Shown here one piece after another: positions 9,362 to 48,582 of a stretch of 64,000 bases of DNA; within the stretch, counting starts at the first letter, position 1; the number at the start of each line of letters is the position of its first letter. Under the pieces are notes generated by a model. It saw only the letters and a list, made by a program, of their open reading frames with translations, was not told the DNA's origin and searched no databases. A program made the translations under genes and the position numbers. The stretch comes from Nocardioides panacis (GTDB lineage Bacteria > Actinomycetota > Actinomycetes > Propionibacteriales > Nocardioidaceae): NCBI RefSeq assembly GCF_019039255.1, contig NZ_CP077062.1, positions 4,216,001-4,280,000 on the forward strand, written 5' to 3'.

Positions 9362-10073
9362 CTACGCGGTTCCGGCCGTCCGCTCGGCGGCGTCGAGGAG
9401 GACCCGGGCCAGCCGCTCGGGCTGCACGAGCTGCGGCCAGTGGCCGCCGGGCAGGTCGACGTACTCGACGTCCCGGACGGCGGCGAGCTCCGGCAGGTCC
9501 CCGCCGGCCACCCACTCGCGGAGCTGCTCCGCGGTGTACTCCGGGCACACCGCGGTGACCGGGACGTCGTACCGGCGGGGGTCGTGCAGCCGCACGGGCT
9601 CGCTGAGCACCCCCTCGGGGACCGGGATGGCCTCGGCGTAGAGCCGTTCGAGGGTCGGCCCGTCGAGGTCGGCGACGTTCGCCTCCTCGCCGACCTCCTT
9701 CCAGTCCGGCATCGCGACCTCGCCGTTCTCGGCGGGCAGGCCGCGCAGGAGGGCGCTGCCGTCCTCGCTCGGGAAGCCGCCGACGTACACCGCGCGGGCG
9801 ACCCGGTCCGGGCGGGCGTCGACGGCGGCGTGCCCGATCCCGCTGCCGGCGGAGTGCCCGACCAGCAGCACCGGGCCCTCGGTCGCGTCGATCGCGGCGA
9901 CGACGGCGTCCACGTGGTCCCGCAGGGTGATGCCCGAGCGGGGGGGCGTCCTTGCCCTCCATCCCGGGCAGCGTCAACGGGTGGGCCCGGTGCCCGGCGC
10001 GCTGCAGCGGCGGGACGACGTCGTCCCAGCTCGAGCCGTCGAGCCACAGGCCGGGGATCAGGATGATGTCCAT
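9362..10073 (-). pseudogene. Alpha/beta hydrolase interrupted by a +1 shift in a C7 run
   Basis: The N-terminus (MDIILIPGLWLDGSSWDDVV) reads from an ATG at 10073 behind a strong GGAGGA ribosome site, then loses frame at a seven-base G run on the given strand (9940-9946). The remainder reads in the next frame, including the nucleophile elbow VLLVGHSAGSG and the terminal GGHWPQLVQPE with the catalytic His. Removing one base from the run joins ...GKDAP to RSGITLRDHVDAVVAAID and restores a 236-residue hydrolase of normal length. Because the only fault is one base in a homopolymer, a sequencing error is as likely as true inactivation; phase variation is a third option. Confidence 0.85.
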
Positions 10074-10193
10074 GGGGGTCCTCCGAACGGGGTGGACGGA
10101 CGGCGGGAGAGCGCCGTCGTGAGGTCCCGTCGGACGCTAGTCGGCATTGCGGACGGTGTGCGTCCGGAACCGACCAGCGACCTGCGACCGGGG

Positions 10194-10748
10194 TCAGCGG
10201 CCCGGGGTGACCCGCCCCAGGATGCCCTTGCTGACCTCGGACGCGCGCTGCTGCTCGCCGGCCAGCGAGCTCACGACCACCAGGGTGCCGGTGAGCGCGG
10301 GCACGACCCACTGCAGGACCCGGAGCTGCGACTGGGCCTTCGCCGCGTCGTCGGGGGTGGCCAGGGACGGGGTGGTGGCGTCCTGGACCGGGACGTCGTG
10401 GTGCTGGGAGACCTTCTTGCCCAGGACCCGGCTGTACGCCGTGACGCCCAGCGCCGCGACGGTGAGGGCGGTCTTGGCCAGGGCCATCGAGGCGACACCC
10501 TGCTGGCCGGCGACCCGGCCCTTGTCGCCGGCGAGCTGGCCCACGCTGCCGACCAGGTGCAGGCCGATCGCCGCCGCGTTGACGGGGGTCCACTTGTCCC
10601 AGCCGGTGTTGGCGACCGCGCCGCTGCCGGTGGCGGTCTTCGCCTCGGCCGAGGCCGGGTTGAGCGACACCGCGTTGGCCAGCGTGCCGCCGAACCAGGC
10701 GGAGAGGCCGACGTCGTGCAGCGAGCGGGAGAGCGTGTTGCGAGCCAT
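10194..10748 (-). CDS. Probable membrane protein of unknown function
   Basis: 184 residues starting at the ATG at 10748, chosen because AGGAGG lies a few bases upstream. Hydrophobic stretches occur near residues 50-65 (VNAAAIGLHLVGSVG), 80-105 (MALAKTALTVAALGVTAYS) and 145-165 (VLQWVVPALTGTLVVVSSLA), consistent with three or four helices. The rest is polar and alanine-rich. I recognise no named family. It is divergent from the epimerase gene at 10885. Confidence 0.78.
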   Translation of the reverse strand: MARNTLSRSLHDVGLSAWFGGTLANAVSLNPASAEAKTATGSGAVANTGWDKWTPVNAAAIGLHLVGSVGQLAGDKGRVAGQQGVASMALAKTALTVAALGVTAYSRVLGKKVSQHHDVPVQDATTPSLATPDDAAKAQSQLRVLQWVVPALTGTLVVVSSLAGEQQRASEVSKGILGRVTPGR

Positions 10749-10884
10749 GAGGGAACCTCCTGAGACGGGGAGGTCCACAGCGTCGTCGCCGTGGACCAGA
10801 ACGATCTCGGTACCCGGCCCCTCCCGGGTGAAACGCCGTCGCGTGGGTCATCGGGCCTCAGGGCGCCCGTGCCAGGGTGGTGGG

Positions 10885-11805
10885 ATGACCGAGTCCAGCC
10901 CCTCCCCGTCCGCCGTCGTCGTCGTCACCGGGGCGAACGGTCTGGTCGGCTCCCGCACCTGTGCCGCGCTCGTCGAGCGGGGTGCGACCGTGCGTGCCGT
11001 CGTACGACGTCCCGGCACCGCCCCGGCCCTCGCCGGCGTCGAGGAGTGGGTCGGTGACTTCTACGACCCGGAGCTGGCGGCCGCCGTGGTCGCGGGCGCG
11101 GACGCCGTGGTCACCACGGTCCACCCGATGGGGACCGACCGCGCGACCCAGCACCGGATCGCGGTGGACGGCACACCGGTCCTGGCGACGGCTGCCCGGG
11201 ACGCCGGGGTCGAGCGACTGGTGCACATCTCCACGGCGGGCGTCTACGACCGCTCACCCGGCACCGGCGACGTGGACGAGGACGCCGCGCTGGTCGCGGA
11301 CGACGCGGACGCCTACGCCGTGACCAAGCGTGACACCGACGCCGCGCTGACCGAGGTCGACGGGCTCACCCGCGTGCTGCTCCGTCCGCCGGCGATCCTC
11401 GGCGCCGCGGAGACCTCGGTCTGGAACACGCTTCGTCCGGCCGCGATGCGCGACGACGAGAACGCCCGGCACGCCGTCCCCGAGCAGAGCTTCGCCTGGG
11501 TGCACGTCGACGACCTCGCCACCTTCGCCGCTGACCTGGCGTCCGGCCGGGTGGCGGCCGCGACGGACCCGGCAGCCGGACCGGTCGCGGGCGGGTGCAC
11601 CGTGGTGAACGTCGCGGCGGGCCCGGCGACGGTCCGCGACTACTACGCGACCGTCACCGGAGCCCTCGGCGTCGAGCCGGTCTGGGACGACCGTCCGGTG
11701 TGGACCGGCCGCATCCTGGCCGGGCGGGCCCACGGGTGGGGCTGGACACCGAGCGTGGACCTGACCCGCGCACTGGCCGAGATCGACGACGGGCTGCGCG
11801 GCTAG
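10885..11805 (+). CDS. NAD(P)-dependent epimerase/dehydratase family protein
   Basis: 306 residues from the ATG at 10885. Extended short-chain dehydrogenase with the nucleotide-binding motif TGANGLVGSRT at about residues 14-24, HISTAGVYDRS, and a catalytic Tyr-Lys pair in DAYAVTKRDTD (YxxxK). Substrate unknown: members act on nucleotide sugars, flavonoids or steroids. Its stop overlaps by a few bases the stop of the convergent SRPBCC gene. A longer open frame runs upstream but lacks coding character. Confidence 0.88.
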   Translation: MTESSPSPSAVVVVTGANGLVGSRTCAALVERGATVRAVVRRPGTAPALAGVEEWVGDFYDPELAAAVVAGADAVVTTVHPMGTDRATQHRIAVDGTPVLATAARDAGVERLVHISTAGVYDRSPGTGDVDEDAALVADDADAYAVTKRDTDAALTEVDGLTRVLLRPPAILGAAETSVWNTLRPAAMRDDENARHAVPEQSFAWVHVDDLATFAADLASGRVAAATDPAAGPVAGGCTVVNVAAGPATVRDYYATVTGALGVEPVWDDRPVWTGRILAGRAHGWGWTPSVDLTRALAEIDDGLRG

Positions 11806-12482
11806 CGGGTCGGCGTCCCGGCAGCAGCCGTGTCCTCGACGTTGCGCTTGAGGACCCGGAGCATCCGCGCCTGCATCACCCAGACGACCGGCGGGAACAG
11901 CCAGGACGCGAGCAGCAGTCCCAGCCAGCGCGGGCGGAAGGCCTCGTACCCGCCGATCACGAGCCGGGTGCGCCCACCGGGCAGCGCGGTCAGCAGGAAC
12001 CCCCAGAGCCCCTCGGTGTAGGCGGACGGCCGGGGCTGCCGCGGGTCGAGGGTCCGGCCGCGCAGGTCGCTGCACCCGTGCAGCCCCAGGAACCGGCCCG
12101 GCTCGAGCGCGGCGACCTCCCAGGCGTCCACCAGGCCGTGGCGGGTCCGGTACCTCACCGGGTCGCCCACCTCGAGCGCCTGCCACTCGGGGTGGACCTC
12201 GCGGGCGCTCGGGTGGCCGGCGTTGTCGAGGTGGTCCCAGGAGTACCAGCCCGCCCGGTCCCCGCCCAGCTGCACCAGCCACGGCCAGACCTGGTCGGGC
12301 GGTGCGTCGATGGTGACCGCCATGGTCGCGCCCCGCCGCCCGTCGGGGACCACGTCCGCGCCGGGGTACGGCCCCCTGACCTCCGTCTCGGTGGCGCCCC
12401 AGGTCCGGAGCCGGGGGAGCACCCAGCCGACGTAGACCAGCACGCCCAGCGCGGTGGCCGCGGCCCTGCCTGCGACTGCCAT
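11802..12482 (-). CDS. SRPBCC (START/polyketide cyclase-like) membrane-anchored protein
   Basis: 226 residues. An N-terminal hydrophobic helix (about residues 8-25) is followed by an SRPBCC domain starting MAVTIDAPPDQVWPWLVQLG and containing AGWYSWDHLDNAG. Another hydrophobic stretch (LLLASWLFPPVVWVMQ) lies near the C-terminus. The helix-grip fold binds lipids or other hydrophobic ligands, and no catalytic residues can be assigned. The ATG at 12482 is the first good start. Several actinobacteria carry similar proteins with the same WYSWD motif, from memory. Confidence 0.83.
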   Translation of the reverse strand: MAVAGRAAATALGVLVYVGWVLPRLRTWGATETEVRGPYPGADVVPDGRRGATMAVTIDAPPDQVWPWLVQLGGDRAGWYSWDHLDNAGHPSAREVHPEWQALEVGDPVRYRTRHGLVDAWEVAALEPGRFLGLHGCSDLRGRTLDPRQPRPSAYTEGLWGFLLTALPGGRTRLVIGGYEAFRPRWLGLLLASWLFPPVVWVMQARMLRVLKRNVEDTAAAGTPTR

Positions 12483-12522
12483 GCGGCCAGCGTGGAAGCA
12501 GGCGGGAGGACCGGCCAGGGGC

Positions 12523-13910
12523 CTAGGTCCCGGTCCCGCCGCCCCGGTCCGGCGTAGACGTCTCGCGCAGCGCGTCCGCCAGGCAGGCCCGCAGCACCTC
12601 CTGGTCCGGGAAGTGGTCCGGGTCGGCGACGGCCGCGACGGTCAACGTGCCGGCGTACGACAGCACCTCGAAGGAGACCGTCGAGTTCCCGCTCTCGGCG
12701 ACCACGACCGGTACGGCGGAGACGACCCGCCGCCCGTCGAACGACACGGGCTCGACCGGGCCGCGCACGTGGCTGACCAGGGTGTGGAACCGGTGCTGGT
12801 GGTCGAGGTACCACCGGTAGCCGCCGGCCGCGGCCAGCGGCCGGAACAGCCAGCCGAGCACGGCGATCGGCGGGGGACCGCTCGCACCCGCCTTCCCGGC
12901 CCGGACGGTCGCGGCGACCGCCGCCAGGCGCTCGGCCGTCGCGCCCCTGGTCGGCACCGGGACCAGCAGCGGGCTCACGAGGTTGCCGAGCCCGGCCCGC
13001 TGCTCGGCGCGCCGCCCGGACACCGGGACGGCGACCACGACGGAGTCGACGCACTCACCCCGCCGCTCGAGCACCCGCTGCAGCGCGGTCGCGACGGCGA
13101 CCAGCACGGCGTCGTTGGTGGTGGCGCCGTGCCGGTGCGCGGCCGCGCGGACCGCGTCGTACGGCGCGCGCACCACGACCACCCGGCGGCGGGCACCGGT
13201 CCGGCGCATCAACGAGCACTCCGCGATCCGCGGCGGCCGCAGCCCCCCGCCCGCCTGCATGGACGCCCGCAGCAGCCGCCACGAGCCGGCGACGCCGCAG
13301 ACCGCCTTCGCCTTGGTGCGCACCGCATCCCTCAGCAGGTCCGGCACCGAGGGGCGGGGCCGCGCCGGCCGGACGGCGGTCGTCTCCGGGCCGGGGTCCA
13401 CCAGGCCGGCCAGGACGGTGAGCCCGCCGATCCCGTCCGCGAGGACGTGGTGCAGCACGACCACGAGCGCGCTCCGGTCGTCCGGCAGCCCGGTCACCAG
13501 GACCACCGACCACAACGGCGCCTCCCGTCGGAGCGGGGTCATCACCACCTCCAGGGCGGTGTCCAGCAGCGCCTGGGCGTCGCCGGGGGCCCGGCAGGCG
13601 ACCGCGCGGACGTGGCGCCGGACGTCGAAGCCCGGGTCGTCGACCCAGACCGGGCCGCCGCAGCCGAACGGCACCGTGACCAGCCGCTGGCGCAGCCGGG
13701 GGGACCGACCGGGTCCGCTGGTCGACGAGGTCGCGGGCACGCGGCAGGGACAGGGGGGCCGTCGAGCTCGAGGACGACCCCGAACTGCTGCGGGACGTCC
13801 CCGTTGTCCATCGCCAGGAAGGCGCGGTCCGACGCGCTCGCGCGCTCGACCGGCGTCGGCCCGGTCGTCGTCCCCGGTGCCGGCAGCCGCCGACGGATCG
13901 CCACGCCCAT
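12523..13910 (-). pseudogene. Wax ester synthase/DGAT-type acyltransferase with two shifts in C6 runs
   Basis: WS/DGAT family, which acylates alcohols or diacylglycerol from acyl-CoA to make storage lipid. The frame starting at the ATG at 13910 encodes the normal N-terminus (RASASDRAFLAMDNGDVPQQ). It is lost at the six-base run 13753-13758 and, after about 55 bases in a second frame (SLPRARDLVDQR), again at the run 13698-13703. The rest carries the active-site HHxxxDG motif (HHVLADGIGG) and the usual C-terminus. Deleting one base from each run gives a single 461-residue protein, a normal family length. Both faults are single extra bases in homopolymers, so read error is a serious alternative to a true pseudogene. 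Confidence 0.85.
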
Positions 13911-14005
13911 GCGGCCAGCGAACCCCGTCGTACGACGGGACCGGCAGGGCCCAACGTCCCGGGGTCGACCGGTGTGCGCACGCCCGCTGGGGGTACCGGG
14001 CACCC

Positions 14006-14221
14006 ATGTCCGACAAGAAGCTGAGCAAGGGCGACCAGGTCGAGTGGAACAGTCACGGCGGCACCGCGGAGGGCACGGTCGAGAAGAAGATCACCCGTGA
14101 CACGCACGCCGCGAAGCGGGACGTGAAGGCCTCCGAGGACGACCCGCAGTACCTCGTGAGGAGCGACAAGAGCGGCGGCGAGGCGGTCCACAAGCCGGAC
14201 GCGCTGAAGAAGAAGAAGTAG
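14006..14221 (+). CDS. DUF2945 (HVA1-like, TUDOR fold) protein
   Basis: 71 residues, a single small domain beginning KKLSKGDQVEWNSHGGTAEG and ending in a lysine run. This matches the HVA1/DUF2945 family, small SH3/Tudor-like proteins of unknown function found widely in bacteria and fungi. Very high charge (Lys, Asp, Glu) suggests a soluble nucleic-acid- or protein-binding role, which is inference only. It stands alone between the acyltransferase and the VOC gene. Confidence 0.85.
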   Translation: MSDKKLSKGDQVEWNSHGGTAEGTVEKKITRDTHAAKRDVKASEDDPQYLVRSDKSGGEAVHKPDALKKKK

Positions 14222-14234
14222 GCGGGCCGTCCGC

Positions 14235-14909
14235 TCAGCCCGGCGGGAAGACGCAGAACTCGTTGCCCTCGGGGTCGGCCAGCACGGTCCAGTGCGGCTG
14301 CTCCCACAGGTACGTCGCCCCGCGGGCGAGCAGGTCCTCGACGCGACCGACGACGTCCCAGTGCACGCGGTTGGGCTCGGTGCGCGGCTCGGGCACCGGA
14401 GCGAAGTCCAGCGTCATCCGCTCGTCGACCGCCACCCCGCTCAGCGTCCACCAGTCGTCCCCGGGCTCGCGCGTCGGCTCGACCCCGAACAGCCCGCCCC
14501 ACCAGCGAGCGAGGGCCTCGGGATCGGCGCAGTCGATCCCGATCCCGTGGATCCGGTACGCCGGCAGCCGGTCCGGGGGTCGCACGAACGCGCAGAACTC
14601 GTTGCCCTCCGGGTCGGCCATCACGTTCCACCCGAAGGCGTTCTCCGACGCCGGCGCCAGCACCCGGGCACCGAGGGCGGTCAGGTCGTCGACCGATCCG
14701 CAGTCCACGTCGAGGTGGACGCGGTTCTTGACCCGGTGCGGCCGGTCGACCGGGTTCACCCACAGGGTGTGCCGCGACGTCGCCCCGCCGAGCCGGGCCG
14801 GTGGTTCACCGTCCGCGACCTCGAGCCCGCTCACCTCGGCCCAGAACCGGGTCTGGAGGTCGACGTCGACCGCGTCCATGCACAGGTCCTGCCAGGTCAC
14901 GAGGCTCAC
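14235..14909 (-). CDS. Two-domain VOC family protein
   Basis: 224 residues from a GTG at 14909 that overlaps the preceding stop (GTGA). Two tandem glyoxalase-like halves, each ending in the same block: ADPEGNEFCAFV (about residue 107) and ADPEGNEFCVFP (C-terminus). Each half also has an HxDV segment (NRVHLDVDCG and NRVHWDVVGR). This is the actinobacterial VOC/DUF subtype often labelled glyoxalase; the substrate is unknown. It is translationally coupled to the DUF1905/YdeI gene upstream. Confidence 0.87.
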   Translation of the reverse strand: MSLVTWQDLCMDAVDVDLQTRFWAEVSGLEVADGEPPARLGGATSRHTLWVNPVDRPHRVKNRVHLDVDCGSVDDLTALGARVLAPASENAFGWNVMADPEGNEFCAFVRPPDRLPAYRIHGIGIDCADPEALARWWGGLFGVEPTREPGDDWWTLSGVAVDERMTLDFAPVPEPRTEPNRVHWDVVGRVEDLLARGATYLWEQPHWTVLADPEGNEFCVFPPG

Positions 14910-15376
14910 CGCTGCTTGCCTGCCAGGAAGAGCGCGACCGCCTTCTCCACACGTCGTTGCCGGGTCTCCGGAGCCTTGGCGGCGTTGATGTTGTCCACGT
15001 GATAGCGCCGCAGGCTGTTGGAGAGCCCGTCGAAGAACTGTCGGGCGGGCGCTGCCTGCTCCATCGCAGCAGCGAAGTCCGGGGGCACCTCCACCTCCCG
15101 CGGGGTGTCGGCGACCTTCAGGGTCACGGAGATCGCGTCGCCGCCCCTCAGCCCGGTCGCCTCGCGGATCGCAGCACTGACACCGATGAGGTGTCGACCA
15201 CCCATGACGGCAACCGTGCTGCGGTACTCGTACCCGTTCACCGTCACCAGCACCGGCGGACGTCTGCCGTGCCCCAGCTGCTCGATGACCTGCTCCGGCA
15301 CAGGGATGCCGGTGTTGTTCCCGCTCGAGCTCAAGGTCGTCTCGAAGGTCACGCCTTCGCGCTGTTCCGGTGTCAT
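14906..15376 (-). CDS. DUF1905 and YdeI/OmdA-type protein
   Basis: 156 residues. The N-terminal half (VLVTVNGYEYRSTVAVMGGRHLIGVSAAIREATGL is the region from about residue 42) matches DUF1905. The C-terminal half (VPPDFAAAMEQ, ARQFFDGLSNSLRRYHVDNI) matches the bacteriocin-protection YdeI/OmpD-associated family. Such fusions are common in actinobacteria; the molecular role is not known. It is co-transcribed with the VOC gene that follows through a GTGA overlap. Confidence 0.88.
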   Translation of the reverse strand: MTPEQREGVTFETTLSSSGNNTGIPVPEQVIEQLGHGRRPPVLVTVNGYEYRSTVAVMGGRHLIGVSAAIREATGLRGGDAISVTLKVADTPREVEVPPDFAAAMEQAAPARQFFDGLSNSLRRYHVDNINAAKAPETRQRRVEKAVALFLAGKQR

Positions 15377-15457
15377 CGCTCTCCCGTCGCTGTCGAACCG
15401 ACTCGAAACTAACCGAGGTACGACGCCCGGGTGGTCGACAACCCTCCGACAGTGTCC

Positions 15458-16170
15458 TCAGCGGCCCGCGCTCTGGCCGCCGTCGAGGTGCAGGATCTGT
15501 CCGGTGACGAACGGGGCCGACTCCAGGTAGAGGATGCCGTCGACGACGTCGCTGACCTGGCCGACCCGTCCCAGGGGTGGAGCGCCGCAAGGGAGTCGTA
15601 GGACTCCGGCGCATGTTCCGGGGTCTGGATGACGCCCGGCGAGACCGCGTTGACCCGGATGCCGTGCGCGGCGTACTCGATGGCCAGGGACCTGGTGGCG
15701 GAGGCGAGACCGCCCTTGGTCAGCGCGGTGAGGACGGCGGGTGTCTGGGAGTCGGCGAAGTCCGCGAGCGTGGCCGAGACGTTGACGACGTGGCCGCTGC
15801 GTCGCTCGAGCATCGCGGTGATGACGCGCTGGGTGAGCCAGAAGAACCCGGCCAGGTTGACGCCGACAGCTCGCGCGTAGTCGGCGGCCGTGTAGTCGGT
15901 GAACGGCTTGGCGACGTACACGCCGGCGTTGTTGACGAGGGTGTCGATGCGGCCGAACCTCTCCAAGGCGCCCTCGACGACGCGGTCGGCGGTGGCGGGA
16001 TCGGAGATGTCTCCGTCGATCGTGAGCAGGTCCGCGTCGCTGGCCGGCACGATCGTGCGCGAGGTCGCCACGACCGCCCAGCCCTGCCGCCGGTAGCCGG
16101 CCACGAGGCCGGCCCCGATGCCCTGCGAGCCGCCCGTGACGACGACCACCTTGCGAACCCGCTCGCTCAT
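15458..16170 (-). pseudogene. Short-chain dehydrogenase/reductase with a one-base shift near the C-terminus
   Basis: Classical SDR: TGGSQGIGAGL nucleotide motif, NNAG, a catalytic Ser-Tyr-Lys site (here VNVSATLADF and a Thr-Lys of ALTKGG, with the usual YxxxK Tyr not seen) and NAVSPGVIQTPE. The frame is lost at about 15573-15576, in a short C run. The end of the protein (VSDVVDGILYLESAPFVTGQ, then LHLDGGQSAGR) reads in the next frame. One additional C would restore 237 residues. The ATG at 16170 overlaps the stop of the GNAT gene (ATGA). Either a sequence error or a recent mutation; the substituted active-site Tyr is odd and independent of the shift. Confidence 0.78.
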
Positions 16171-16742
16171 GCATCTGCCCCGGAGGACGGCTGCCACTGC
16201 CGCCTGAGCAGCCCGTAGACCCACGAGTCCGACACGTCTCCGTTCACCACGCAGTCCTCGCGCAGCGTGCCCTCGCGCACGAACCCGAGCTTCTCCAGGA
16301 CACGCGCCGAGGCCGCGTTGCGCGTGTCGGCCTCGGCCTGCACCCGGTTCAGGTCCAGCGTGTCGAACGCCCACTGCAGCACGGCGCGGGCGGCCTCGGT
16401 CGCGTAGCCGTGGCCCCAGGCCGCCTCCTCGAGGCAGTAGCCCATCGCCGCGCTGTGGTAGTCCGGGTTCCACCGGGTCAGGGAGCACCAGCCGAGGAAC
16501 GTCGCGTCGGAGACGCGGTCCAGGGCCAGCCGTGCCCCGCTGCCGTCCTCCGCCATCTGCCGGCAGGCCACGAGGAAGCGGTCGGCGCGCGCCGGCTCGG
16601 TCCAGGGCGGAGAGTTCCAGTAGCGCAGCACGGAGGCGCTGCTGTGCAGCGCGAACAGGGCGTCCGCGTCCTCGGTGGTGAAGGGGCGCAGCCGCAGCCG
16701 GTCGGTGTGCAGCGTGGGGGTGAGCAGGGACATGCCTGCCAT
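16167..16742 (-). CDS. GNAT acetyltransferase, RimJ/RimL type
   Basis: About 191 residues from the ATG at 16742 (a second ATG at 16733 would also serve). Starts LHTDRLRLRPFTTEDADALF as in RimJ/RimL enzymes and has AAWGHGYATEAARAVLQWAF, the acetyl-CoA binding loop, then NAASARVLEKLGF. It would acetylate an amino group, often of a protein N-terminus or small amine. The open frame extends 47 residues further upstream without homology. Coupled by ATGA to the SDR that follows. Confidence 0.88.
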   Translation of the reverse strand: MAGMSLLTPTLHTDRLRLRPFTTEDADALFALHSSASVLRYWNSPPWTEPARADRFLVACRQMAEDGSGARLALDRVSDATFLGWCSLTRWNPDYHSAAMGYCLEEAAWGHGYATEAARAVLQWAFDTLDLNRVQAEADTRNAASARVLEKLGFVREGTLREDCVVNGDVSDSWVYGLLRRQWQPSSGADA

Positions 16743-16898
16743 GGTGCCTTGCCCGTACGAGCGTCCGCCGGGCCGGGAACGCCAGTCGCCGTCCGGATGG
16801 CACTGCGTGCGCCCCGGTCGAGTCATGTCCCTGCCCTGCCGTTTGGACCATGCTCGAAGGGCGGGGGTGCGCATACCTGGCAAGCCGAGGTGGTCGAC

Positions 16899-18272
16899 AT
16901 GACGTTGCGAAGCGAGACTGCGCCCACGAGTGACGACCCGGTCCCGCCCCCCGTGCCGGCGTCACGGCGTACGCACCTGGGGAGAGTCGTGGCCGGTTCG
17001 CTGGCAGCTGGGTTCGCAGCGGCGGTCGTGCTCCCGTTCCTGCCAGTCGCCTCGGTGGATGTGGACTTCTCCACCGCGATGGTGCTGCTCGGGTGGGCGC
17101 TCGGGTGGGCGCTCTTGGCGGTGCTGTCCACACGGTTCACCGACCAACCTCAACGCTGGGCCGTAGTGCCCGCGATCTTCATGGCGGTGGCTGGTGCGTT
17201 GCTGCTCGTGGCCCCGGGCGCCGTGGTGGACGACCTGGGCTGGGTCTGGCCGCCCGCTCTGGTGATCTTGGTGGTCTGGATGTGGATCCGCGCCAAGCGC
17301 ACGATGCACAGCCGGGCCAGGGTGTGGCTGCTGAACCCGGTGCTGGTCGTCCTGGTGCTCCTCGCTCTGGGCGGGGTGTACGAGAGGATCGCTCAGTCCG
17401 CCGCACCGGTGGTCGCCATGCGCGGGCAGCTCGTCGACGTCGGACCGTACCGCCTCCACCTGGAGTGCCACGGTTCACGCCGCCCGACCGTGGTCCTGGA
17501 GCCCGGCGGTGGTGGCTCGGCAGCCTCGATGGGACTGATCGCGCCCGCGGTAGCCCGCGACACCCGGGTGTGCGTGTACGACCGGGCAGGGCGGGGCTGG
17601 AGTGATCCTGCCGCGAGCCCGCCCGATGCTGCCCAGATCGCCACCGATCTCCACACGCTGCTGAACCGCGCGCACGTTCCGGGTCCCTACGTGCTGGCCG
17701 GGCACTCGTTCGGCGGGCTGTACGTGAGGACGTATGCCGCGAAGTACCCCGATGAAGTCGCCGGTCTCGTCCTGGTCGACTCCACCGCCGCCCACGACAC
17801 CCCCGTGTCGGCACCGAAGGCGGCTTCCTACAGCGTCCTGAAGCATGCGACCTCGCTGATCGCGACCACTTCCCACGTGGGCCTCGGTTGGTTCCTCGCC
17901 AACAGCGACTACGCGTATCTGCCGCCGAAGTACCGCGACGATGCACGTTCGACTGCAGCCTCCGGGAAGGAGATGGCCGGGTTCCTCGATGAGTTCGGCG
18001 TCGCGAACCGGTCCGAGGCCGAGGCCGGGACACTCCGCACCCTGGATGCGAAGCCATTGATCGTCCTGACCGCCACCGTCGACAACTCCAAGGGATGGAT
18101 GGCTGACCAGGACAAGATGGTCACGCTGTCGAGCAACAGCGTCCATCGCGTCGAGCCAGGGGCGACCCACGCGTCCTTCGTGGACGACCCAGCGCACGCC
18201 GCCGCCGTCACCCGAGCGATCCACGACATCGTCGTCTCACTCCGGACCGGGGCACCGCTGAGCCACCCCTGA
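16899..18272 (+). CDS. Membrane-anchored alpha/beta hydrolase
   Basis: 457 residues from the ATG at 16899. Four hydrophobic helices lie in the first 160 residues, followed by an alpha/beta hydrolase domain: VLEPGGGGSAASMG (oxyanion loop), the nucleophile Ser in LAGHSFGGLYV (about residue 270), and a C-terminal GATHASF supplying the His. The acid is probably an Asp around 400. The catalytic domain would face one side of the membrane; substrate unknown. Divergent from the GNAT gene, with only about 150 bases between them. Confidence 0.87.
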   Translation: MTLRSETAPTSDDPVPPPVPASRRTHLGRVVAGSLAAGFAAAVVLPFLPVASVDVDFSTAMVLLGWALGWALLAVLSTRFTDQPQRWAVVPAIFMAVAGALLLVAPGAVVDDLGWVWPPALVILVVWMWIRAKRTMHSRARVWLLNPVLVVLVLLALGGVYERIAQSAAPVVAMRGQLVDVGPYRLHLECHGSRRPTVVLEPGGGGSAASMGLIAPAVARDTRVCVYDRAGRGWSDPAASPPDAAQIATDLHTLLNRAHVPGPYVLAGHSFGGLYVRTYAAKYPDEVAGLVLVDSTAAHDTPVSAPKAASYSVLKHATSLIATTSHVGLGWFLANSDYAYLPPKYRDDARSTAASGKEMAGFLDEFGVANRSEAEAGTLRTLDAKPLIVLTATVDNSKGWMADQDKMVTLSSNSVHRVEPGATHASFVDDPAHAAAVTRAIHDIVVSLRTGAPLSHP

Positions 18273-18408
18273 CGCCGGCCGCTGACGGCACATGCTTCGG
18301 GTCGCCGGTCCCAGAGGCCGGTTGCTACTCGTCACGTGAGTCGATGCACCGGGGCCGGGTGACGTCTTGGCCGGGTGCCATTCCGACGGACTTCCTCCAG
18401 CGGGGGAA

Positions 18409-21527: not shown

Positions 21528-21555
21528 GTAGACCGGTGCGTACCCAACGGTCTAC
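21528..21555. promoter_or_regulatory. 28-bp dyad, candidate TetR operator
   Basis: GTAGACCG at 21528-21535 and its exact complement at 21548-21555, with a central GTAC; 12 of the 14 half-site positions are paired. It lies immediately before the GGAGG ribosome site of the TetR gene and within the divergent promoter region shared with the SDR gene. Binding of the neighbouring TetR is inferred. Confidence 0.8.
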
Positions 21556-21564
21556 GCTGGAGGT

Positions 21565-22534: not shown

Positions 22535-22900
22535 TCAAACCCGAGCCTCGAGGCGGTCGTCGGCCAAGTCCACACGGTCGAAAGGGTCTCGCAGCCGCAG
22601 GGCGCCGGGCGCGGAGTCCGGGACGACCGGGTGGGTGACCACGTGCGACCCCGGCGTGAAGATGCCGCCGCCGAAGGCGACCACGACGTTCTGTTTACCG
22701 GCCCGTGCTTGAGGCTCTTGCGGGGGTTGGTGCCCCGCGCCTTGACGCCGATGTCGAGGGAGGCCCAGCAGGGGTGTCGCGCGCCGCACCATTGATGGTC
22801 AGTCCTTCCCAAGCGTTGGTGGCGGCGATCTCGGCCATCCGTGCCGAGCAGGCGATGCTCGCCTCCGCCCAGGGGGACCGACCGCGGGCTGAGGAGCCCT
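22535..22900 (-). pseudogene. Truncated, frameshifted rraA (RraA/HMG aldolase family) remnant
   Basis: Three frames read in succession on the minus strand give the C-terminal half of an RraA-like protein: AEIAATNAWEGLTINGAARD, then ASLDIGVKARGTNPRKS, then NVVVAFGGGIFTPGSHVV. These match the family's conserved blocks around the NGxxRD active site and the GTNPRKS loop. At least two one-base losses separate them, and about 75 N-terminal residues are absent: the resemblance ends close to the stop of the Gfo/Idh gene at 22933. RraA-like proteins act as HMG/CHA aldolases or oxaloacetate decarboxylases, or inhibit RNase E. Unlike the single-shift genes elsewhere in this window, this one is truncated as well, so it is a real remnant. 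Confidence 0.75.
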
Positions 22901-22932
22901 GGGCGAGATCCACCGAACGCACCCGGTGCGCC

Positions 22933-23811: not shown

Positions 23812-24369
23812 GCATCGAGACTAGGAGTGGGGACCCGGGCCGGGCATCCCCTGTTCGCGTGACTCGACGCTCACGGGTGCAAAGAGGCACCGCCCCAGGT
23901 CACGAGATGTCCTGAGGCGGTGCGGATGCCGGGCCCGTAGTCCAAACGGGATCGAGACGGAAGATGTCAGTGAGCCGTCTGCTCTGGAACCGGGGTCTCC
24001 CCAGGTCTCTGAGCCACCCGATCATCTGAGAGCGCGTGTCCCATCACCTGCGCGGATCGCGGCATGAGCGGACGTTTCCATAGCCTCATCGCCTGGTGCG
24101 GCTGAGCGCCTAGAGGCAGGTGTACTGCTCGTTGGGTGCGGGGTGAAGGACGAGTTCCTGTGGAATGTGCGCGGGACTCTTCGGCTCAGGACCCTGGCAG
24201 CGTACGGGGATGCTTTCACGGGGCCGTGAAGCGCGCTGGGGCGTCCGTCGCCGGACACCGCCCGCGTGGCTCCGGCGATCCCATGTACGCGGGATGACAG
24301 GCGGACCGCCCGACCGGCACGTTGGAGTCTCCACCCTGCCAGCGCTCGGGACCGTCCACGGGAGTCGAG
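23812..24369. other. Intergenic stretch, nothing recognised
   Basis: About 560 bases with no convincing gene on either strand and no tRNA fold that I can see. A short minus-strand frame at 24110-24334 has no family resemblance. The right end should hold the promoter of the gene at 24370. Confidence 0.5.
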
Positions 24370-24990
24370 ATGCAGTTGCGAGCCACCCTGATCACGGCCG
24401 ACCCGGCACGGCTCGAGGAGGCCGTCCGTTTCGTCGAGACCGACGCGCGCAAGCTCGTCGAGGGCGAGCCCGGCAATCTCGGCATGTCGCTGAAGGTCAA
24501 CAGCACGCTCGGAGTCGCGGTGGTGCACAGCTTCTGGGTGTCAGCCGACGCGATGCGGGAGAGCGACAAGCACGTGCGTTCGACCCGGGAGACCGCTGCT
24601 GACCGCGCCAGTGGCACGGTCTCCGTGGAGACCTACCGGGTTGCGAGCGTGGTGAGGGTGGCCCCCTGGGCATCGGGGGGCGGGGTCCGGGTGACGCGCG
24701 CTGACGCGGACCCCTCCCAGCTCGACACGGTGGTCGCCGCCTACGAGGACACCGCCGTCCCGTGGCTCACCGAGACCGCGGGCTTCTGCGGCGCGCTCTT
24801 CGTCGCGCAGCAGCGCACGGGCCGCACCGTCAGCGAGACGATATGGAGCGATGCGGCCGCGCTGGCCGAGAGCCGGAGCGTGGCGGCCGCCATCAGGGTC
24901 GACACCGCGGCGGCCGCCGACCTCGCCGTACGAGGGCTCGAGGAGTACTCCCTGCTGTTCAGCACGGTCCGGCCCGTGCCCGCCGAGTGA
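24370..24990 (+). CDS. Dimeric alpha-beta barrel (ABM-like) protein
   Basis: 206 residues from the ATG at 24370, preceded by GGGAGTCGAG. Two ferredoxin-like halves can be seen: the first contains GEPGNLGMSLKVNSTLGVAV and the second TAGFCGALFVAQQRTGRTVS followed by TIWSDAAALAESR. This resembles a duplicated antibiotic-biosynthesis-monooxygenase/stress-responsive barrel fold. No cofactor or catalytic residue can be assigned. It stands alone. Confidence 0.72.
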   Translation: MQLRATLITADPARLEEAVRFVETDARKLVEGEPGNLGMSLKVNSTLGVAVVHSFWVSADAMRESDKHVRSTRETAADRASGTVSVETYRVASVVRVAPWASGGGVRVTRADADPSQLDTVVAAYEDTAVPWLTETAGFCGALFVAQQRTGRTVSETIWSDAAALAESRSVAAAIRVDTAAAADLAVRGLEEYSLLFSTVRPVPAE

Positions 24991-25763
24991 CCTCTCCCAT
25001 GCGTCTGTTCGACGGGACGCGGGCGCCTACTCGACGGGGGCAGGGTCGAGCGCGTGCAAGGTTGTCGTGCTCGAGTTGCAGGAGGGGCATATCGGCGTCG
25101 ATGGTTGGGATCTCGGCTTCTGTCGCCTCGACATTGCAGTCGTCGAACTTGGTGAGCGTCCGGCCGGCGGCCCGAGGTTCAGCGCGAACCTTTCTGAGTA
25201 CGGCGCCCCTGACGTGGCGACCTGACGATCAACGATGCGCCGGCGCAGGTTGGTCGCCAGCCAGCCGCGGCCGGAGATCAGACGTCGTTCCTCGAAGCAC
25301 AGACCTCCAGCGGGCAAACGCTCTCGCTGCAGGCCCCTGCAGGCTGCAGGGCACGGTCGGCGCGGCGCGCAGCTCGAAGCAGGCGTCGTTGTTGCCGGAG
25401 CTTCACCCGTGACCAGATCATCCGGATCTCCGAGAGCGTCACCTATCGACAGTGAGCAGCAGCCCCAGGCGGGCGGGCGCTACGGCGCGTGCCCGCTCAT
25501 CGGTTGTGCGTATGTTGTGCGGGGCGCCACCTTCACCGGTTGTGAGAAATGGGACACAACCAGTAAGAGCGCTCGCCGACCGCGCCAAAGGGCTTCGGCA
25601 CGTCCGCTCATCGGCACATCCGGTAAACGGCACTTGCCGATAGGCGGCGGTTCGACGCGCCCACCTGCGCGCGTCCAGGGCAAGAGCGACCGATCGCAAG
25701 TGATGTGCACAGCCGGAGCGAGGAACTGGTCAATCGGACGTCGCGCCGCGTGGCAGTCGCCGT
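24991..25763. other. Long intergenic stretch with two inverted repeats
   Basis: No convincing gene in about 770 bases. A minus-strand frame at 25027-25317 ends in ICPSCNSSTTTLHALDPAPVE, possibly a zinc-ribbon fragment, but has no other recognisable part. Two perfect 7-bp inverted repeats are present: GGTTGTG/CACAACC at 25538-25561 and ATCGGCA/TGCCGAT further right at about 25609-25641. The stretch follows the 3' end of the amidase operon, so the repeats could be terminators or operators left from a lost gene. Confidence 0.45.
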
Positions 25764-27179
25764 CTAACGGTCGAGGTAGGCCGTCGCTCGTCGCGATCCG
25801 AGAGGCTCAGTCGATTCGAGCAGGTGCCCGACGTCCAGCACGCTCTGCTCCCCGCGTGCGGGACCGATGATCTGCATCCCCACGGGGAGTCCCTCGACAA
25901 GACCGCACGGCACCGACAAGGTAGGGAGACCCAGCAGGCTGGCTGGGCCTACGAGCCGGATCAGGTTCTCCAAAGCGTCCACCTCCTTGCCATTGAGGAG
26001 CGCCGTCTCGGAGCCGATCGTTGGCGTGCGGATCGGTAGCGTGGGACCCGCGATCACGTCGACCTCGGCGAAGGCGGCTTGCACCTCTGCGCGAAGATGC
26101 CGCCGGATCTGCTGCGCCTCCAGGTAGTCGACAGCTGACGGCAGCTCTCCGCACTCGAGGAGCAGCCGCACGTCGTCGCTGTAGTCCTGCGGACGGTCGC
26201 GCAGGTTCGCGCGGTGCACTGTGCTGGTCTCGCTGGTGTCAATGATGGTGAGCGCGTACTCCGCGTCCTTGAGCCCCGGGATGCTGATCGTCCGAACCTC
26301 CGCGCCCAGGCCACGCAGCGACTCGATGCCTGCGCGGACGGAGCGGGCGATCTCGTCGTCCACGTCGCTGAAGTAGAAGTCCTCGACGACACCGATGGTG
26401 ACGCCCTCGAGGCTGGTCCGCAGGGAGCCGGCAGTGGTGGTGCCCGGCAGGTTCAGGGACCCGGGGTCGCGCGGGTCGTAGCCGCTGATCGCGTCGAGCA
26501 TGACGGCCGCGTCCTTGACGCTGCGAGTCATCGGACCGACGTGGTCCAACGTCCAGGCCTCCGGGAAGCAGCCGAACCGGCTGACCCGTCCGTACGTCGG
26601 CTTCAGCCCGACGATGCCGCAGAACGCGGCCGGGATGCGGATCGAGCCGGAGGTGTCCGACCCGAGCGCCGCGGTCGCCATGTTGCTCGCGAGCGCAGCG
26701 GCCGAACCGCCGCTCGAGCCGCCCGGGCTCTTGTCGAGGTCCCACGGGTTGCGGCAGGTGCCGTAGTAGCGGTTGTCCGTCGTGCCACCCAACGCGTACT
26801 CGTGCATGTTGAGCTTGCCGAGGAACACGGCGCCCGCCTCGGAGAGCCGGTCGACCACGGTGGCGTTGGTGCTGGAGACGAAGCTGCCGTGGATCTTCGA
26901 CCCCATGGTGGTGACCCGGTCGGCGAAGTAGATGTTGTCCTTGATGGCCAGCGGTACGCCGTGCAGCGCGCCCCGGTAGTGGCCGCCGGAGATCTCGGAC
27001 TCGGCCTTCCTAGCTTCGTTGAGAGCGTCGTCACGGTAGACGTCTATATAGGCTTTCAGCGTGTCGTCGTGACGCCCCATGTTCTCTAGCACGGCAACGG
27101 TCACCTCGACCGGAGACACTTGACCGGACTCGAGCATCGGAGCCAGCTCGTGCACCGGCAGCGCTGCGAGGTCGCTCAT
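25764..27179 (-). CDS. Amidase signature family hydrolase (GatA/AtzF-like)
   Basis: 471 residues. Amidase signature enzyme with the full Ser-cisSer-Lys triad: Lys80 in GVPLAIKDN, Ser155 in SPGGSSGGSA and Ser179 in ALGSDTSGSIRIP. It hydrolyses a carboxamide. It stands in an operon with a 60-residue protein (ATGA overlap) and an APC permease and is not beside gatB/gatC, so it is probably a catabolic amidase and not the tRNA amidotransferase subunit. Substrate inferred from the locus: an N-acyl amino acid or amino acid amide. Confidence 0.91.
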   Translation of the reverse strand: MSDLAALPVHELAPMLESGQVSPVEVTVAVLENMGRHDDTLKAYIDVYRDDALNEARKAESEISGGHYRGALHGVPLAIKDNIYFADRVTTMGSKIHGSFVSSTNATVVDRLSEAGAVFLGKLNMHEYALGGTTDNRYYGTCRNPWDLDKSPGGSSGGSAAALASNMATAALGSDTSGSIRIPAAFCGIVGLKPTYGRVSRFGCFPEAWTLDHVGPMTRSVKDAAVMLDAISGYDPRDPGSLNLPGTTTAGSLRTSLEGVTIGVVEDFYFSDVDDEIARSVRAGIESLRGLGAEVRTISIPGLKDAEYALTIIDTSETSTVHRANLRDRPQDYSDDVRLLLECGELPSAVDYLEAQQIRRHLRAEVQAAFAEVDVIAGPTLPIRTPTIGSETALLNGKEVDALENLIRLVGPASLLGLPTLSVPCGLVEGLPVGMQIIGPARGEQSVLDVGHLLESTEPLGSRRATAYLDR

Positions 27180-27358
27180 GCCTGCTCCTCCACTGCTCGC
27201 CAGGTCACGGCGATCTCGTGGTCGGCCAGCAGGGACTCGTCCACCTCGCCGCGCAGCCGCAACATCTTGGCCCAGTACTGTTCGAGCGGGGCCTCGTCCT
27301 CTGCGGGGACAGTGAGGCCGCGGTTTTGCAGACGCTGGAGAGCGGTTGGATTCGTCAT
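27176..27358 (-). CDS. Small amidase-linked protein (AtzG-like position)
   Basis: 60 residues from the ATG at 27358, with AAAGGG upstream. Highly polar and mostly helical (AEDEAPLEQYWAKMLRLRGE), with no signal peptide. The stop overlaps the amidase start (ATGA). Small partner proteins next to amidases are known, such as AtzG beside AtzE, and form part of the active complex. Sequence similarity to AtzG is weak, so the role is inferred from position and size. Confidence 0.7.
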   Translation of the reverse strand: MTNPTALQRLQNRGLTVPAEDEAPLEQYWAKMLRLRGEVDESLLADHEIAVTWRAVEEQA

Positions 27359-27368
27359 CGGTGCCCTT

Positions 27369-28808
27369 TCAGTCGGTGACCTGCGGCTCGCGCAGGGCGG
27401 CCATCGCGTCCCGGCGGGAGCGCAGGTAGAAGAAGTAGTATGCGAGCCCCAGTGCATAGATGATCGCAACGGCGATGAGATCCTTCCTGGCCTGCTGGCT
27501 CAACGCCAGCAAAGCGCCCAGGATCGCAAGCACCGGCGGCACTGGGTAGAGCGGCAAGCGGAACGTCCGCACCGAGGTCTTGTCACGTTGCCTGCTCACG
27601 ATCGTGGTCACCCCGACGAACACGTAGATCGAGATGGTGAGCACGGACACGAAGGTCACGACGGCGACGATGTCGGAGGCGAAGCAGAGGATAGTGGCGC
27701 ATACGCCGACGACGAGGGTGGCCACCCAGGGGGCGTCGGTCGCAGGCAGGAGCCTTTGCAGCGCTTTGCTGACCGGCGACGGCCAGATGCCGTCACGACC
27801 GCTTGCCCAAAGCACCCGGGCGAACTGCAGCGTGATCGCCAAGCAGGCATTGAAGAACGCGATGACCGCTCCAATGATGAGGATCGTGGCCGCGGTGTGG
27901 CCCCAGTGCTGCTCGACGACGTAGGTGAGTGGGGTGCTGGAGGACAGGAACGCCTTGAGGTCAGGAGCTCCGAAGGCTGCACCGAGGAACGCCGCCAGTT
28001 CGAGCCCCACGCCCACGAGGCAGGACACCAGGACCGCCTTGCCGACGTTGCGAGTCGACCCCTTCGTCTCCTCGGCGAACGAGATGGCCGCGTCGTACCC
28101 GTTCACGGACTGCAATGCGATCGCAACTGCGGCGACGACAGCTCCCGTCCCGAAGGACTGCAGCGTCCCGTCCACGACCCCCATTGGGTCCAGGAAGGTC
28201 GAGACGCTCTGTGTGGGGTTGGAAAAGCCGGCCACTGCAATGACCACAATGACGACCATCTCCAGGGCCAGGAACAGTGCGGTCATCAACGCGTTGACGT
28301 GAATCTTCAGCATCGCCAGGCCAGTGACAATGACCATGGCGATGGCGGCAGAGAGGTTGACCGGAAATACGTCGTTGAGTGAGTTGAGGTAGATGCCCAC
28401 GCCGAGCGCGATACTCGCGGGGAGGAAGATCGCCTGCACGACGTAGCTGAGCAGGGTGAGAAAGGCGGCCCACGTGCCAAGCACCCGGGCCACGATCGAG
28501 TAGATGCCGCCGGCGATCGGATAGAGCGCGCCCAGCTCAGCCATACACAGGGCGACCATCACGGCCAACGTCGCACCGGCGAGGTAGGCGAGCACCGACC
28601 CGGTGCCGGCCACCGCAACCACGGCAAGCCCGACGATCAGCAGCGAGCCTGCCGGCGTGATGTCCGACAACGTAAGGATTACCGAGCCGATCGTCGTCAG
28701 GCCCCGCTCGAGCCGTGGCCTGTAGCCCAGCTGACGGAGCCGGGTGTCCCCGTCGATATCGATGTGAACGGTGTCAGTGGGATGTGGTCCGCTCGGTGCG
28801 TTGGCCAT
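27369..28808 (-). CDS. APC superfamily amino acid permease
   Basis: 479 residues, about 12 membrane helices. The APC N-terminal signature is present: LTLSDITPAGSLLIVGLAVV in helix 1 and MAELGALYPIAGGIYSIVAR in helices 2-3, plus FAEETKGSTRNVGKAVLVS. It would import an amino acid or amino acid derivative driven by the proton or sodium gradient. First gene of the three-gene amidase operon, divergent from the GNAT-peptidase-racemase operon at 29003, which suggests it brings in their substrate. Confidence 0.92.
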   Translation of the reverse strand: MANAPSGPHPTDTVHIDIDGDTRLRQLGYRPRLERGLTTIGSVILTLSDITPAGSLLIVGLAVVAVAGTGSVLAYLAGATLAVMVALCMAELGALYPIAGGIYSIVARVLGTWAAFLTLLSYVVQAIFLPASIALGVGIYLNSLNDVFPVNLSAAIAMVIVTGLAMLKIHVNALMTALFLALEMVVIVVIAVAGFSNPTQSVSTFLDPMGVVDGTLQSFGTGAVVAAVAIALQSVNGYDAAISFAEETKGSTRNVGKAVLVSCLVGVGLELAAFLGAAFGAPDLKAFLSSSTPLTYVVEQHWGHTAATILIIGAVIAFFNACLAITLQFARVLWASGRDGIWPSPVSKALQRLLPATDAPWVATLVVGVCATILCFASDIVAVVTFVSVLTISIYVFVGVTTIVSRQRDKTSVRTFRLPLYPVPPVLAILGALLALSQQARKDLIAVAIIYALGLAYYFFYLRSRRDAMAALREPQVTD

Positions 28809-29002
28809 CAGTGATCCTTCAAGGTGGGCGAGATGGACGTCAGGGTGCCGTCGGGTGCGGCGAGCCTAGGGGAGACCAACGTCTCGAAAGGTTTGCCGAT
28901 TGCACAGGCTTTTCGTCCGAGAGTTGTCACCTTTGCACGAAGCGGCACCGGACGGCCCGAGGAAGGATGGGTCGCCAACCGCTCCCGGCGAAAGGACCCG
29001 AT

Positions 29003-29905
29003 ATGCCGCACACCGCGCCACCACCGGACAGTCGGGCGCGGGACGACGCGGCTATCCCGGACGAGCTCGCTGAGTCCGCGGTGACCGGGGCCGAGCGCGA
29101 TGCCCGGGAGGCAGCAGACCGCGCGCAGATCACCATCGTCGAGGCGCGGGACGAGTCCGCCGCACGCCTGATCGCGGAGGTCGGCGCCAGGGTCTGGGGC
29201 CCGCGCGGCACGCTCGCACCCAACGAGCTGCGGGCCCTCATGCACGCCGGGGACCCGGTGCACCTCGCCCTAGACCGCAGCCAGCCAGGGCGCGACGTAG
29301 TGGGGTTCGCGGTCGGCTTCGTCGGCTGGTCACCGTTGCTGCACGTGCACTCGCACCAGGTCGGAGTCGTGGACGGACATCGGCGCCGCGGAGTCGGCTA
29401 CGCCCTGAAGCTGGCGCAGCGGCACACCTGCTTGTCCCACGGCATCACCGACATGCGCTGGACGTTCGACCCGTTGGTGCGCCGCAACGCGTCGTTCAAT
29501 CTGGGGGCGCTCGGTGCTCACGCCGCCGCATTCCACGTCGATTTCTACGGCGCGATGGATGACGCGATCAACGAGGGCGACGCCTCGGACCGGTTGGAGG
29601 CGGTCTGGGCGCTGGCGAGGCCGCTGCCCTCTCGGCCAAGCGCCGCGCCCGCGATCCGTGGCGAGCTGGTGCCCCTGCTCGTCGAACGCGACGGCCGGCC
29701 ACAGCCGACCGGCGCCGACCCGTCGGCCGGAGCCATGCTCGCCATACCGGCCGACTACGAGACCTTGCGAAGGCAGGACCCCTCTAGCGGCAGGGCCTGG
29801 CGCGCTGCTGTTCGCGAGGTCCTGCGCGCGGCGTACGCCTCCGGCCTGCGCGTCGGCCGGGTCACCGACACCGGCTACCAGCTGGTCGCCGGGGACGACG
29901 CGTGA
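29003..29905 (+). CDS. GNAT-like acetyltransferase (COG3375 type)
   Basis: 300 residues from the ATG at 29003 behind AAAGGA. After a polar first 40 residues a GNAT fold follows with LLHVHSHQVGVVDGHRRRGVG (acetyl-CoA loop, split here as two motifs) and ITDMRWTFDPLVRRNASFNL. This is the predicted GNAT subfamily often found beside N-acylamino acid racemases. It would acylate or deacylate an amino acid nitrogen. Its stop overlaps the M20 peptidase start. Long for a GNAT: the C-terminal 120 residues form an extra domain. Confidence 0.85.
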   Translation: MPHTAPPPDSRARDDAAIPDELAESAVTGAERDAREAADRAQITIVEARDESAARLIAEVGARVWGPRGTLAPNELRALMHAGDPVHLALDRSQPGRDVVGFAVGFVGWSPLLHVHSHQVGVVDGHRRRGVGYALKLAQRHTCLSHGITDMRWTFDPLVRRNASFNLGALGAHAAAFHVDFYGAMDDAINEGDASDRLEAVWALARPLPSRPSAAPAIRGELVPLLVERDGRPQPTGADPSAGAMLAIPADYETLRRQDPSSGRAWRAAVREVLRAAYASGLRVGRVTDTGYQLVAGDDA

Positions 29906-31062
29906 TGTCCGGACCGGATCCGCTCATGCAGGTGTGCGCCCGGTTGGCCGCCCAGCAGGGCGCCATGGTCTCGATGCTGGACACCTTGGTCTCCAGCGAG
30001 TCCCCCTCCAACGACCCGGCTCTTCTCGCGATCACCGCTGACCTGGTGGCAGACCTGGGTGAGAACCTGCTGGGCCAGCAGGCCGAATGGGTGACGACGA
30101 GCGGGCCGAAGGCCCTCAGGTGGGACCTTCCCGAGGTTCGTAGCGAAGCCGCGCCGGTCGTTTTGCTGGCTCACCTGGACACGGTCTGGCCAGTGGGCAC
30201 ACTGGACCGCTGGCCGTTCTCGGTCACCGACGACCGGGCGACCGGTCCGGGCGCCTTCGACATGAAGGCCGGTATCGTCCAGGCCTTCTTCGCCCTGGCC
30301 GCACTCGCCGAGGCCGGGCTCCCGCGTCCACCCGTCGTCGTGCTGGTGACGGCGGATGAAGAGATCGGCTCACCCGCCGGGCGCGAGCTCGTCGAGGCCG
30401 CCGCACAAGGAGCGAGCGCGGTACTCGTGCTGGAAGCCTCGGCCGGTGGCGCCTTGAAGATCGCCCGCAAGGGCGTCGGTAACTATTGGCTGCACGTCAC
30501 CGGCCGAGCCGCGCACGCCGGACTCGAGCCGGAGATGGGCGTCAACGCACTGGTCGCCGCCGCCGAGCTTGTGCTGGCCCTTGGCGGCATCGCCGACGCC
30601 GCTGGGGGCACCACCGTCACGCCGACGGTGGCCGATGCTGGCAGCGCCCAGAACACCGTCCCGGCGACCGCGTCGATCGCGGTCGACGTTCGCGCCGTCA
30701 CGGTGGCCGAGCAGGAACGGGTCGACCACGCGCTGCGGGCCCTGCGTCCGTCGAATGGCGCCACGGTGACGGTCGAGGGTGGGATCAACCGCCCGCCGCT
30801 CGAGGAGCGGGCCGCAGCCGACCTGTACGCCCTGGCGCAGCGGGCCAGCAGCCGCTGCGGGCTTCCACCGCTTAGCTCGACACGCGTGGGCGGTGGGTCC
30901 GACGGCAACTTCACCGCGGCGCTTGGCGTGCCGACGCTGGACGGGCTCGGTGCCGTGGGTGCGGGCGCGCATGCCGAGGGCGAGTACGTCCTCACCACCG
31001 CCATGCCCCAGCGAGCTGCCTTGCTCGCTGGCCTGATTGTCGAACTCGCGAGGAGAAGTTGA
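29905..31062 (+). CDS. M20 family metallopeptidase / N-acyl amino acid deacylase
   Basis: 385 residues from the ATG at 29905 (GTG at 29902 is also possible; both overlap the GNAT stop). M20 motifs: VVLLAHLDTVWPVG (His and the following Asp bind zinc), GPGAFDMKAG (bridging Asp), VTADEEIGSPAG (catalytic Glu) and GAGAHAEGEYV (terminal His). The dimerisation domain lies at about residues 180-290. Such enzymes cleave N-acyl amino acids, carbamoyl amino acids or dipeptides. It overlaps the racemase start (TGATG), consistent with a deacylation step next to racemisation. Confidence 0.92.
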   Translation: MSGPDPLMQVCARLAAQQGAMVSMLDTLVSSESPSNDPALLAITADLVADLGENLLGQQAEWVTTSGPKALRWDLPEVRSEAAPVVLLAHLDTVWPVGTLDRWPFSVTDDRATGPGAFDMKAGIVQAFFALAALAEAGLPRPPVVVLVTADEEIGSPAGRELVEAAAQGASAVLVLEASAGGALKIARKGVGNYWLHVTGRAAHAGLEPEMGVNALVAAAELVLALGGIADAAGGTTVTPTVADAGSAQNTVPATASIAVDVRAVTVAEQERVDHALRALRPSNGATVTVEGGINRPPLEERAAADLYALAQRASSRCGLPPLSSTRVGGGSDGNFTAALGVPTLDGLGAVGAGAHAEGEYVLTTAMPQRAALLAGLIVELARRS

Positions 31063-32172
31063 TGAAGCTAGCGTCTGTTGAGCTGCTGCGTCTGAAGATG
31101 CCGCTGGTCGCGCCGTTCCGTACGTCGTTCGGCGTGCAGACCGGACGTGACGTCCTCCTCGTCGTCGTCCACACGACCGACGGGGCCACCGGCTACGGCG
31201 AGTGCGTCGCGCTGGCAGACCCGGTCTACAACGAGGAGTACGTCGAGGGGGGCTGCGCATGTCCTGTTGCGCTATCTCGTGCCTGCCGTTCTCGCCGAGC
31301 CCGACCTCACCGCCGCGAAGGTCGCAGGTCTCACCGACGGCATCGTCGGGCACCGTATGGCGAAGGCCGCGCTGGAGCTCGCCGTGCTCGACGCGCAGCT
31401 GCGCACAGTGGGCATGAGCATGACCGAGTACCTCGGCGGAGTGCGGGAGAGGGTCGACGTCGGCGTTTCAGTTGGCATCACCGACACAGTCGAGGACCTC
31501 GTGCGCGTCGTAGGCGACTTCCGAGCGCAAGGCTATCGTCGGGTCAAATTGAAGATCCAGCCCGGCTTCGACGTCGAGCCCGTCACAGCGGTGCGGGAAG
31601 CGTTCGGGAGTGCCCTGGCGCTTCAGGTGGACGGCAACACCGCTTACCGTGCCAAGGACCTGGCCCACCTGACCGAGCTGGACGCATTCGGCCTGCTCTT
31701 GATCGAACAGCCCTTCGAGCACGACGCCAATGACCTGCACGCTGAACTGGCCACTCGGTGCGTCACGCCGATCTGCCTGGACGAGTCGCTGACGTCGTCG
31801 GCGACCACGGCGGCCGCCATCCACTCCGGCGCCTGCAGTGTCGTGAACATCAAGGCCGGCCGGATGGGTGGCTACCTTGAGGCCCGTCGGGCGCATGACG
31901 TCGCGACCGCCCTGAACACGCCGGTGTGGTGCGGCGGCATGCTCGAGACTGGTCTGGGCCGAGCCGCGAACCTGGCCCTGGCCTCGCTCCCGGGCTTCAC
32001 GCTTCCCGGCGACATCTCCGCCTCCGACCGCTACTACGCCCAGGACATCACCGAGCCGTTCGTGTTGGTCGACGGTCAAGTCGCGGTGCCGCAAGGTCCT
32101 GGGCTGGGGGTCACCGTGCGGGAGGACGTGCTGCGAGAGGTGATCACGTCGCGTCAGACCGTGTCGGCGTAG
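31062..32172 (+). pseudogene. N-acylamino acid racemase/o-succinylbenzoate synthase-type enolase, shifted in a G6 run
   Basis: Enolase superfamily, NSAR/OSBS subgroup. The N-terminus (MKLASVELLRLKMPLVAPF) reads in one frame to YNEEYVEG; the rest reads in another from AHVLLRYLVPAVLAEPD. The break is at the six G at 31247-31252; removing one gives a continuous 369-residue protein, the exact usual length. All catalytic residues are present: KLKI (both Lys), DGN, EQP, DES and NIKAGR. It would racemise N-acyl amino acids produced or used by the neighbouring M20 peptidase and GNAT. Everything else in the gene looks under selection, so a read error is likely. Confidence 0.88.
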
Positions 32173-39066: not shown

Positions 39067-39099
39067 GGGCCGCGCACTTGCGTCGACTCGCGTCGGGCG

Positions 39100-48546: not shown

Positions 48547-48582
48547 CCCATCAGCATCATGGCTGCGGCGTCGTCAGTCTCC

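Follow-up and report, generated by a model that had tools for sequence, protein, structure and literature searches.

Results and Discussion

Single-base frame shifts in four metabolic genes

In the window, by which the whole 64,000-nt stretch analysed is meant (bases 4,216,001–4,280,000 of a genome assembled as one contig of 4,901,775 bases), four genes encoding an alpha/beta hydrolase, a wax ester synthase/diacylglycerol acyltransferase (WS/DGAT), an SDR family oxidoreductase and a racemase of the enolase superfamily contain a total of five single-base shifts that break their reading frames. This raises the question of whether the genes have been lost by mutation, are switched by changes in the length of their G/C runs, or are intact in the organism and misread in the assembly. 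The original prediction described the faults as uniform and suggested a systematic homopolymer error. The positions of the shifts, the run lengths and the sizes of the proteins restored by one-base repair were confirmed in the sequence (Table 1).

Table 1. Interrupted genes, shift sites and related sites elsewhere in the same genome (window positions unless preceded by a locus label).
Feature	Position	Strand	Remarks
Alpha/beta hydrolase (Abhydrolase_6)	9362–10073	−	236 residues read through; PF12697
7-G run, hydrolase +1 site	9940–9946	+	homologous codons of relatives without such a run
WS/DGAT	12523–13910	−	461 residues read through; PF03007, PF06974, TIGR02946
6-G run, WS/DGAT +1 shift	13698–13703	+	
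6-G run, second WS/DGAT +1 shift	13753–13758	+	
SDR family oxidoreductase	15458–16170	−	237 residues read through; PF00106 on N-terminal part
GGGG (CCCC on coding strand), likely SDR −1 site	15573–15576	+	outside the systematic class
Racemase/o-succinylbenzoate synthase-like enzyme, enolase superfamily	31062–32172	+	369 residues read through
6-G run, racemase +1 shift	31247–31252	+	relatives without such a run at homologous codons
CTTCCA-type shift sites, own genome	L135:14094; L091:2599, 2914; L127:1905; L145:9276; L148:6474; L154:7584		

The G+C content by codon position was of the coding type both before and after every junction, in two different frames, with values of 0.85–1.00 at the third position. 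Blind calls of a codon-phase hidden Markov model (HMM, see below) were placed at 9935, 13742, 15567 and 31255, by which all four genes were recovered, the call at 13742 representing both WS/DGAT runs merged into a net shift of 2. Single tblastn alignments crossed the junctions of the hydrolase, WS/DGAT, SDR and racemase genes at 8, 6, 7 and 8 homologous loci, respectively, and were mostly ungapped at the junction itself, as exemplified by DAPRSGITLR versus DAPRSGITFR (same genus) and EYVEGAAHVLL versus EYVAGAADVLR. The Pfam matches of the split halves agreed with each other, and the shifts in the four genes exceed chance.

The two halves of the hydrolase, read in different frames, both matched PF12697 (profile positions 1–43 and 50–216). 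An intact homologue from the same genus (L027) was 78% identical; the in-frame search of the named genomes gave relatives at 40–63% identity, with no near relative among them. Both WS/DGAT junctions were crossed by the homologues L007, L008 and L009, and both shifts are needed in this gene, since the intervening 50 bases matched the homologues in a third frame only. For the SDR, the C-terminal part was covered by alignment across the junction to L047 and others. In the racemase, the first part matched PF02746 and the second PF13378, TIGR01928 scored above its cut-off, and the junction was crossed by the homologues L067–L073 and L075.

Elsewhere in the window, positions 36000–54000 form an island of lower G+C content (0.59–0.67 vs 0.67–0.78 around it) with genes for a phage-type integrase (38037–39008), NERD domain, HEPN_Swt1 and DUF4238 proteins and a GmrSD-type restriction protein (51349–52446), which looks like an integrated defence island. 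No tRNA was found in the 64,000-nt window searched.

Excess and direction of shifts in the assembly

An HMM of codon phase that allows frame shifts, trained on the long open frames of each genome, was applied to 1.264 Mb of this assembly and, as controls, to parts of five complete genomes from the same family. It gave 118 candidate shifts in the 1.264 Mb, partly gene overlaps or chance calls, which corresponds to 10.4 per 100 kb of coding sequence, against 3.2 in a genome of the same genus (G003) and 4.5, 0, 0 and 1.1 in the other four. A net change of +1 was found for 102 of the 118 candidates. This bias was not a product of the HMM, because planted shifts of both signs were recovered (insertions, 87 of 100; deletions, 62 of 100). 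A G/C run of at least six bases lay within 25 nt of 71 of the 102 +1 shifts, as compared with 1.0% of random coding positions. Extrapolation from the scanned 1.264 Mb gives about 400 +1 shifts per genome.

Dependence on run length

Near coding G/C runs of three, four and five bases, +1 shifts occurred at 0.34, 0.39 and 0.36% (6/1678 for runs of five), and the frequency was 25% at runs of six (59/234) and 61% at runs of seven (11/18). This run-length curve is the clearest evidence for a systematic error. In the complete same-genus genome G003, none of 56 runs of six carried a +1 shift, whereas the rate seen in this assembly would predict about 14. Comparison of the 59 shifted runs with the 1678 remaining runs of five suggests that about 3% of true runs of five are given as six, and longer runs are altered more often. 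The error grows with run length, as in the AlgH-family gene (L163:5879–6450), in which an 8-G run is accompanied by a net shift of two.

G/C runs of six or more bases are also conceivable slip sites for programmed ribosomal frameshifting or transcriptional slippage, by which an intact product would be made across the run. However, about three quarters of the coding runs of six (175/234) read in frame in the same assembly, the run is not conserved in homologues, and the CTTCCA sites described below need another mechanism, so that recoding of this kind has a negligible likelihood.

A second context outside homopolymers

Among the 31 +1 shifts located away from runs of six, TTCCA/TGGAA was present in 13, mostly as CTTCCA (0.6 expected, p about 1e-14), and TTCCAT was shifted at five of its 30 occurrences. 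The 13 sites (examples in Table 1) include those of FlhA and KatG; in FlhA, the shift breaks VGARF/TLDAMPGKQ at a site of the CTTCCA type and the halves are contiguous on the profile. The other 18 shifts lie outside both contexts, and gene overlaps and chance calls are among them. Most simply, the underlying sequence at such sites would be CTTCA. The CTTCCA reading is again a context-dependent error, perhaps, as a speculation, one tied to a base modification that disturbs the reads. The homopolymer error originally suggested is thus to be extended to a non-homopolymer context, in which CTTCA is rendered as CTTCCA.

Shifts in needed genes and in repeated transposase copies

NAD synthetase is essential, and the one full-length copy that the genome has is interrupted precisely between profile positions 368 and 369; further matches, two in number and weak, cover the N-terminal amidase part only. 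CobT is split at profile positions 81/82 and FlhA at 137/138, and two +1 shifts each were found in KatG and in an HPII-type catalase. Genes with shifts at runs of six include those for NAD synthetase, CobT, an acyl-CoA carboxylase-like subunit and transposases. Three identical, dispersed copies of an IS110-like transposase (G000:C1:351896, 366465 and 2163051; L142, L143 and L223) appear shifted at the same 6-G run, and 11 related elements from other genomes keep the reading frame there; among plasmid records only distant IS110 relatives were found. A dead transposase could hardly have spread, and the copies must have been active. That NAD synthetase, CobT and the three IS110-like copies share this type of break disfavours both inactivation and phase variation.

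A separate observation was made at L139:8884–15481, where two adjacent large genes carry one +1 shift each; judged by eye, they may encode both subunits of an AddAB/RecBCD-like nuclease-helicase.

Real, independent loss-of-function mutations, for example in a mutator strain, would leave the four genes as pseudogenes. For the four +1 shifts, nothing specific was found in favour of such an origin, and its only support concerns the SDR, whose −1 class is no commoner than in the same-genus control. Against it stand the coding signal, which shows no decay to either side of the shifts, with no second damage seen, the strong +1 bias with its run-length threshold, and the recurrence of the same fault in NAD synthetase and in three transposase copies. 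Genuine gene loss is therefore very improbable. The doubt originally cast on four independent inactivations was well founded where +1 shifts are concerned, but the SDR could carry a real mutation.

Slipped-strand phase variation, in which run lengths vary in the population and toggle metabolic genes, would agree with the location of the shifts in homopolymer runs. Runs of six or seven are, however, short for contingency tracts. The extrapolated number of about 400 sites per genome, nearly always with +1, is also difficult to reconcile with switching, as is the presence of the sole full-length NAD synthetase among the switched genes. The CTTCCA-like sites, which account for 13 of the 31 +1 shifts outside runs, are no slip tracts, the run is not conserved at the homologous codons of the hydrolase and racemase relatives, and the shifts are not confined to contingency genes, as NAD synthetase, CobT, the acyl-CoA carboxylase-like subunit and transposases are affected. 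Variable G/C tracts that alter reading frames are known in another actinobacterium, Propionibacterium acnes, in which a comparison of 90 genomes revealed 54 such tracts that track the phylogeny (PMC4746626); in contrast, the present case involves an extrapolated 400 sites in one assembly, with runs of six or seven. It is accordingly very unlikely that some of the runs truly vary in the culture, with short-tract slippage toggling metabolic genes and the assembly having caught the 'off' state. Phase variation of metabolic genes, which had been put forward as the alternative, is contradicted by the direction and number of the shifts, by the essential gene and by the non-conserved runs, and a mutator and programmed frameshifting were rejected on the same grounds.

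The SDR shift belongs to a different class

Shifts of −1 made up 16 of the 118 candidates, several of them gene overlaps, and this class was not in excess over the control G003 (7 in 0.34 Mb of coding sequence). The direction and context of the SDR shift (−1, run of four) do not fit the genome-wide +1 class. Isolated −1 shifts of a similar kind were found twice, in a methyltransferase gene (L088:6516) and in the tail of a kinase gene (L156:19782). With no other damage in the gene, a stray error is somewhat more likely for the SDR than a real mutation. Uniformity thus holds for four sites, each with one extra base in a run of six or seven, and neither it nor the systematic error extends to the SDR.

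Comparison with published assemblies

PacBio-only assemblies of high-G+C Streptomyces differed from their Illumina-corrected versions at 70 to 335 positions per genome, the vast majority being single-base insertions in homopolymers, although the wording does not make fully clear which assembly holds the extra base (PMC6923854). The present case, also a high-G+C actinobacterium, resembles them in the type and number of its single-base homopolymer indels. In the Kastor nanopore study, many false frameshifted pseudogenes were reported, and the errors were tied to homopolymers and to k-mers including TCCA (PMC12007338). The likeness lies in false frame shifts at homopolymers and at particular k-mers, whereas the errors there were mostly deletions after homopolymers and those here are almost only insertions. 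Overall, the published homopolymer indels were of either sign for PacBio and mainly deletions for nanopore.

Conclusions

The four +1 shifts in the window (9940, 13698, 13753 and 31247) are best explained as consensus sequencing errors, and the genes concerned as intact in the organism, with a probability of about 95%; taken singly, each +1 shift is probably an error. A systematic error is supported by the assembly-wide excess, the preferred direction, the dependence on run length and context, and the needed genes affected. For the four +1 shifts in the window, it is the genome-wide pattern, its occurrence in single-copy housekeeping genes and its absence at runs of six in the same-genus genome that bear out the homopolymer error suggested at the outset. 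The assembly would lengthen G/C runs from about five bases upwards by one base, at a rate climbing with run length, and the cause would be an error of the reads or of the consensus in a long-read assembly made without adequate short-read polishing.

The phenomenon is almost certainly an ordinary artefact, a matter of sequencing and not of biology, and has housekeeping importance only. The run-length curve together with the CTTCA context provides a quick test for the same fault in other assemblies. With about 400 false shifts probable in this genome, it is unsafe to infer gene loss, pseudogenes or phase variation from this assembly until it has been polished.
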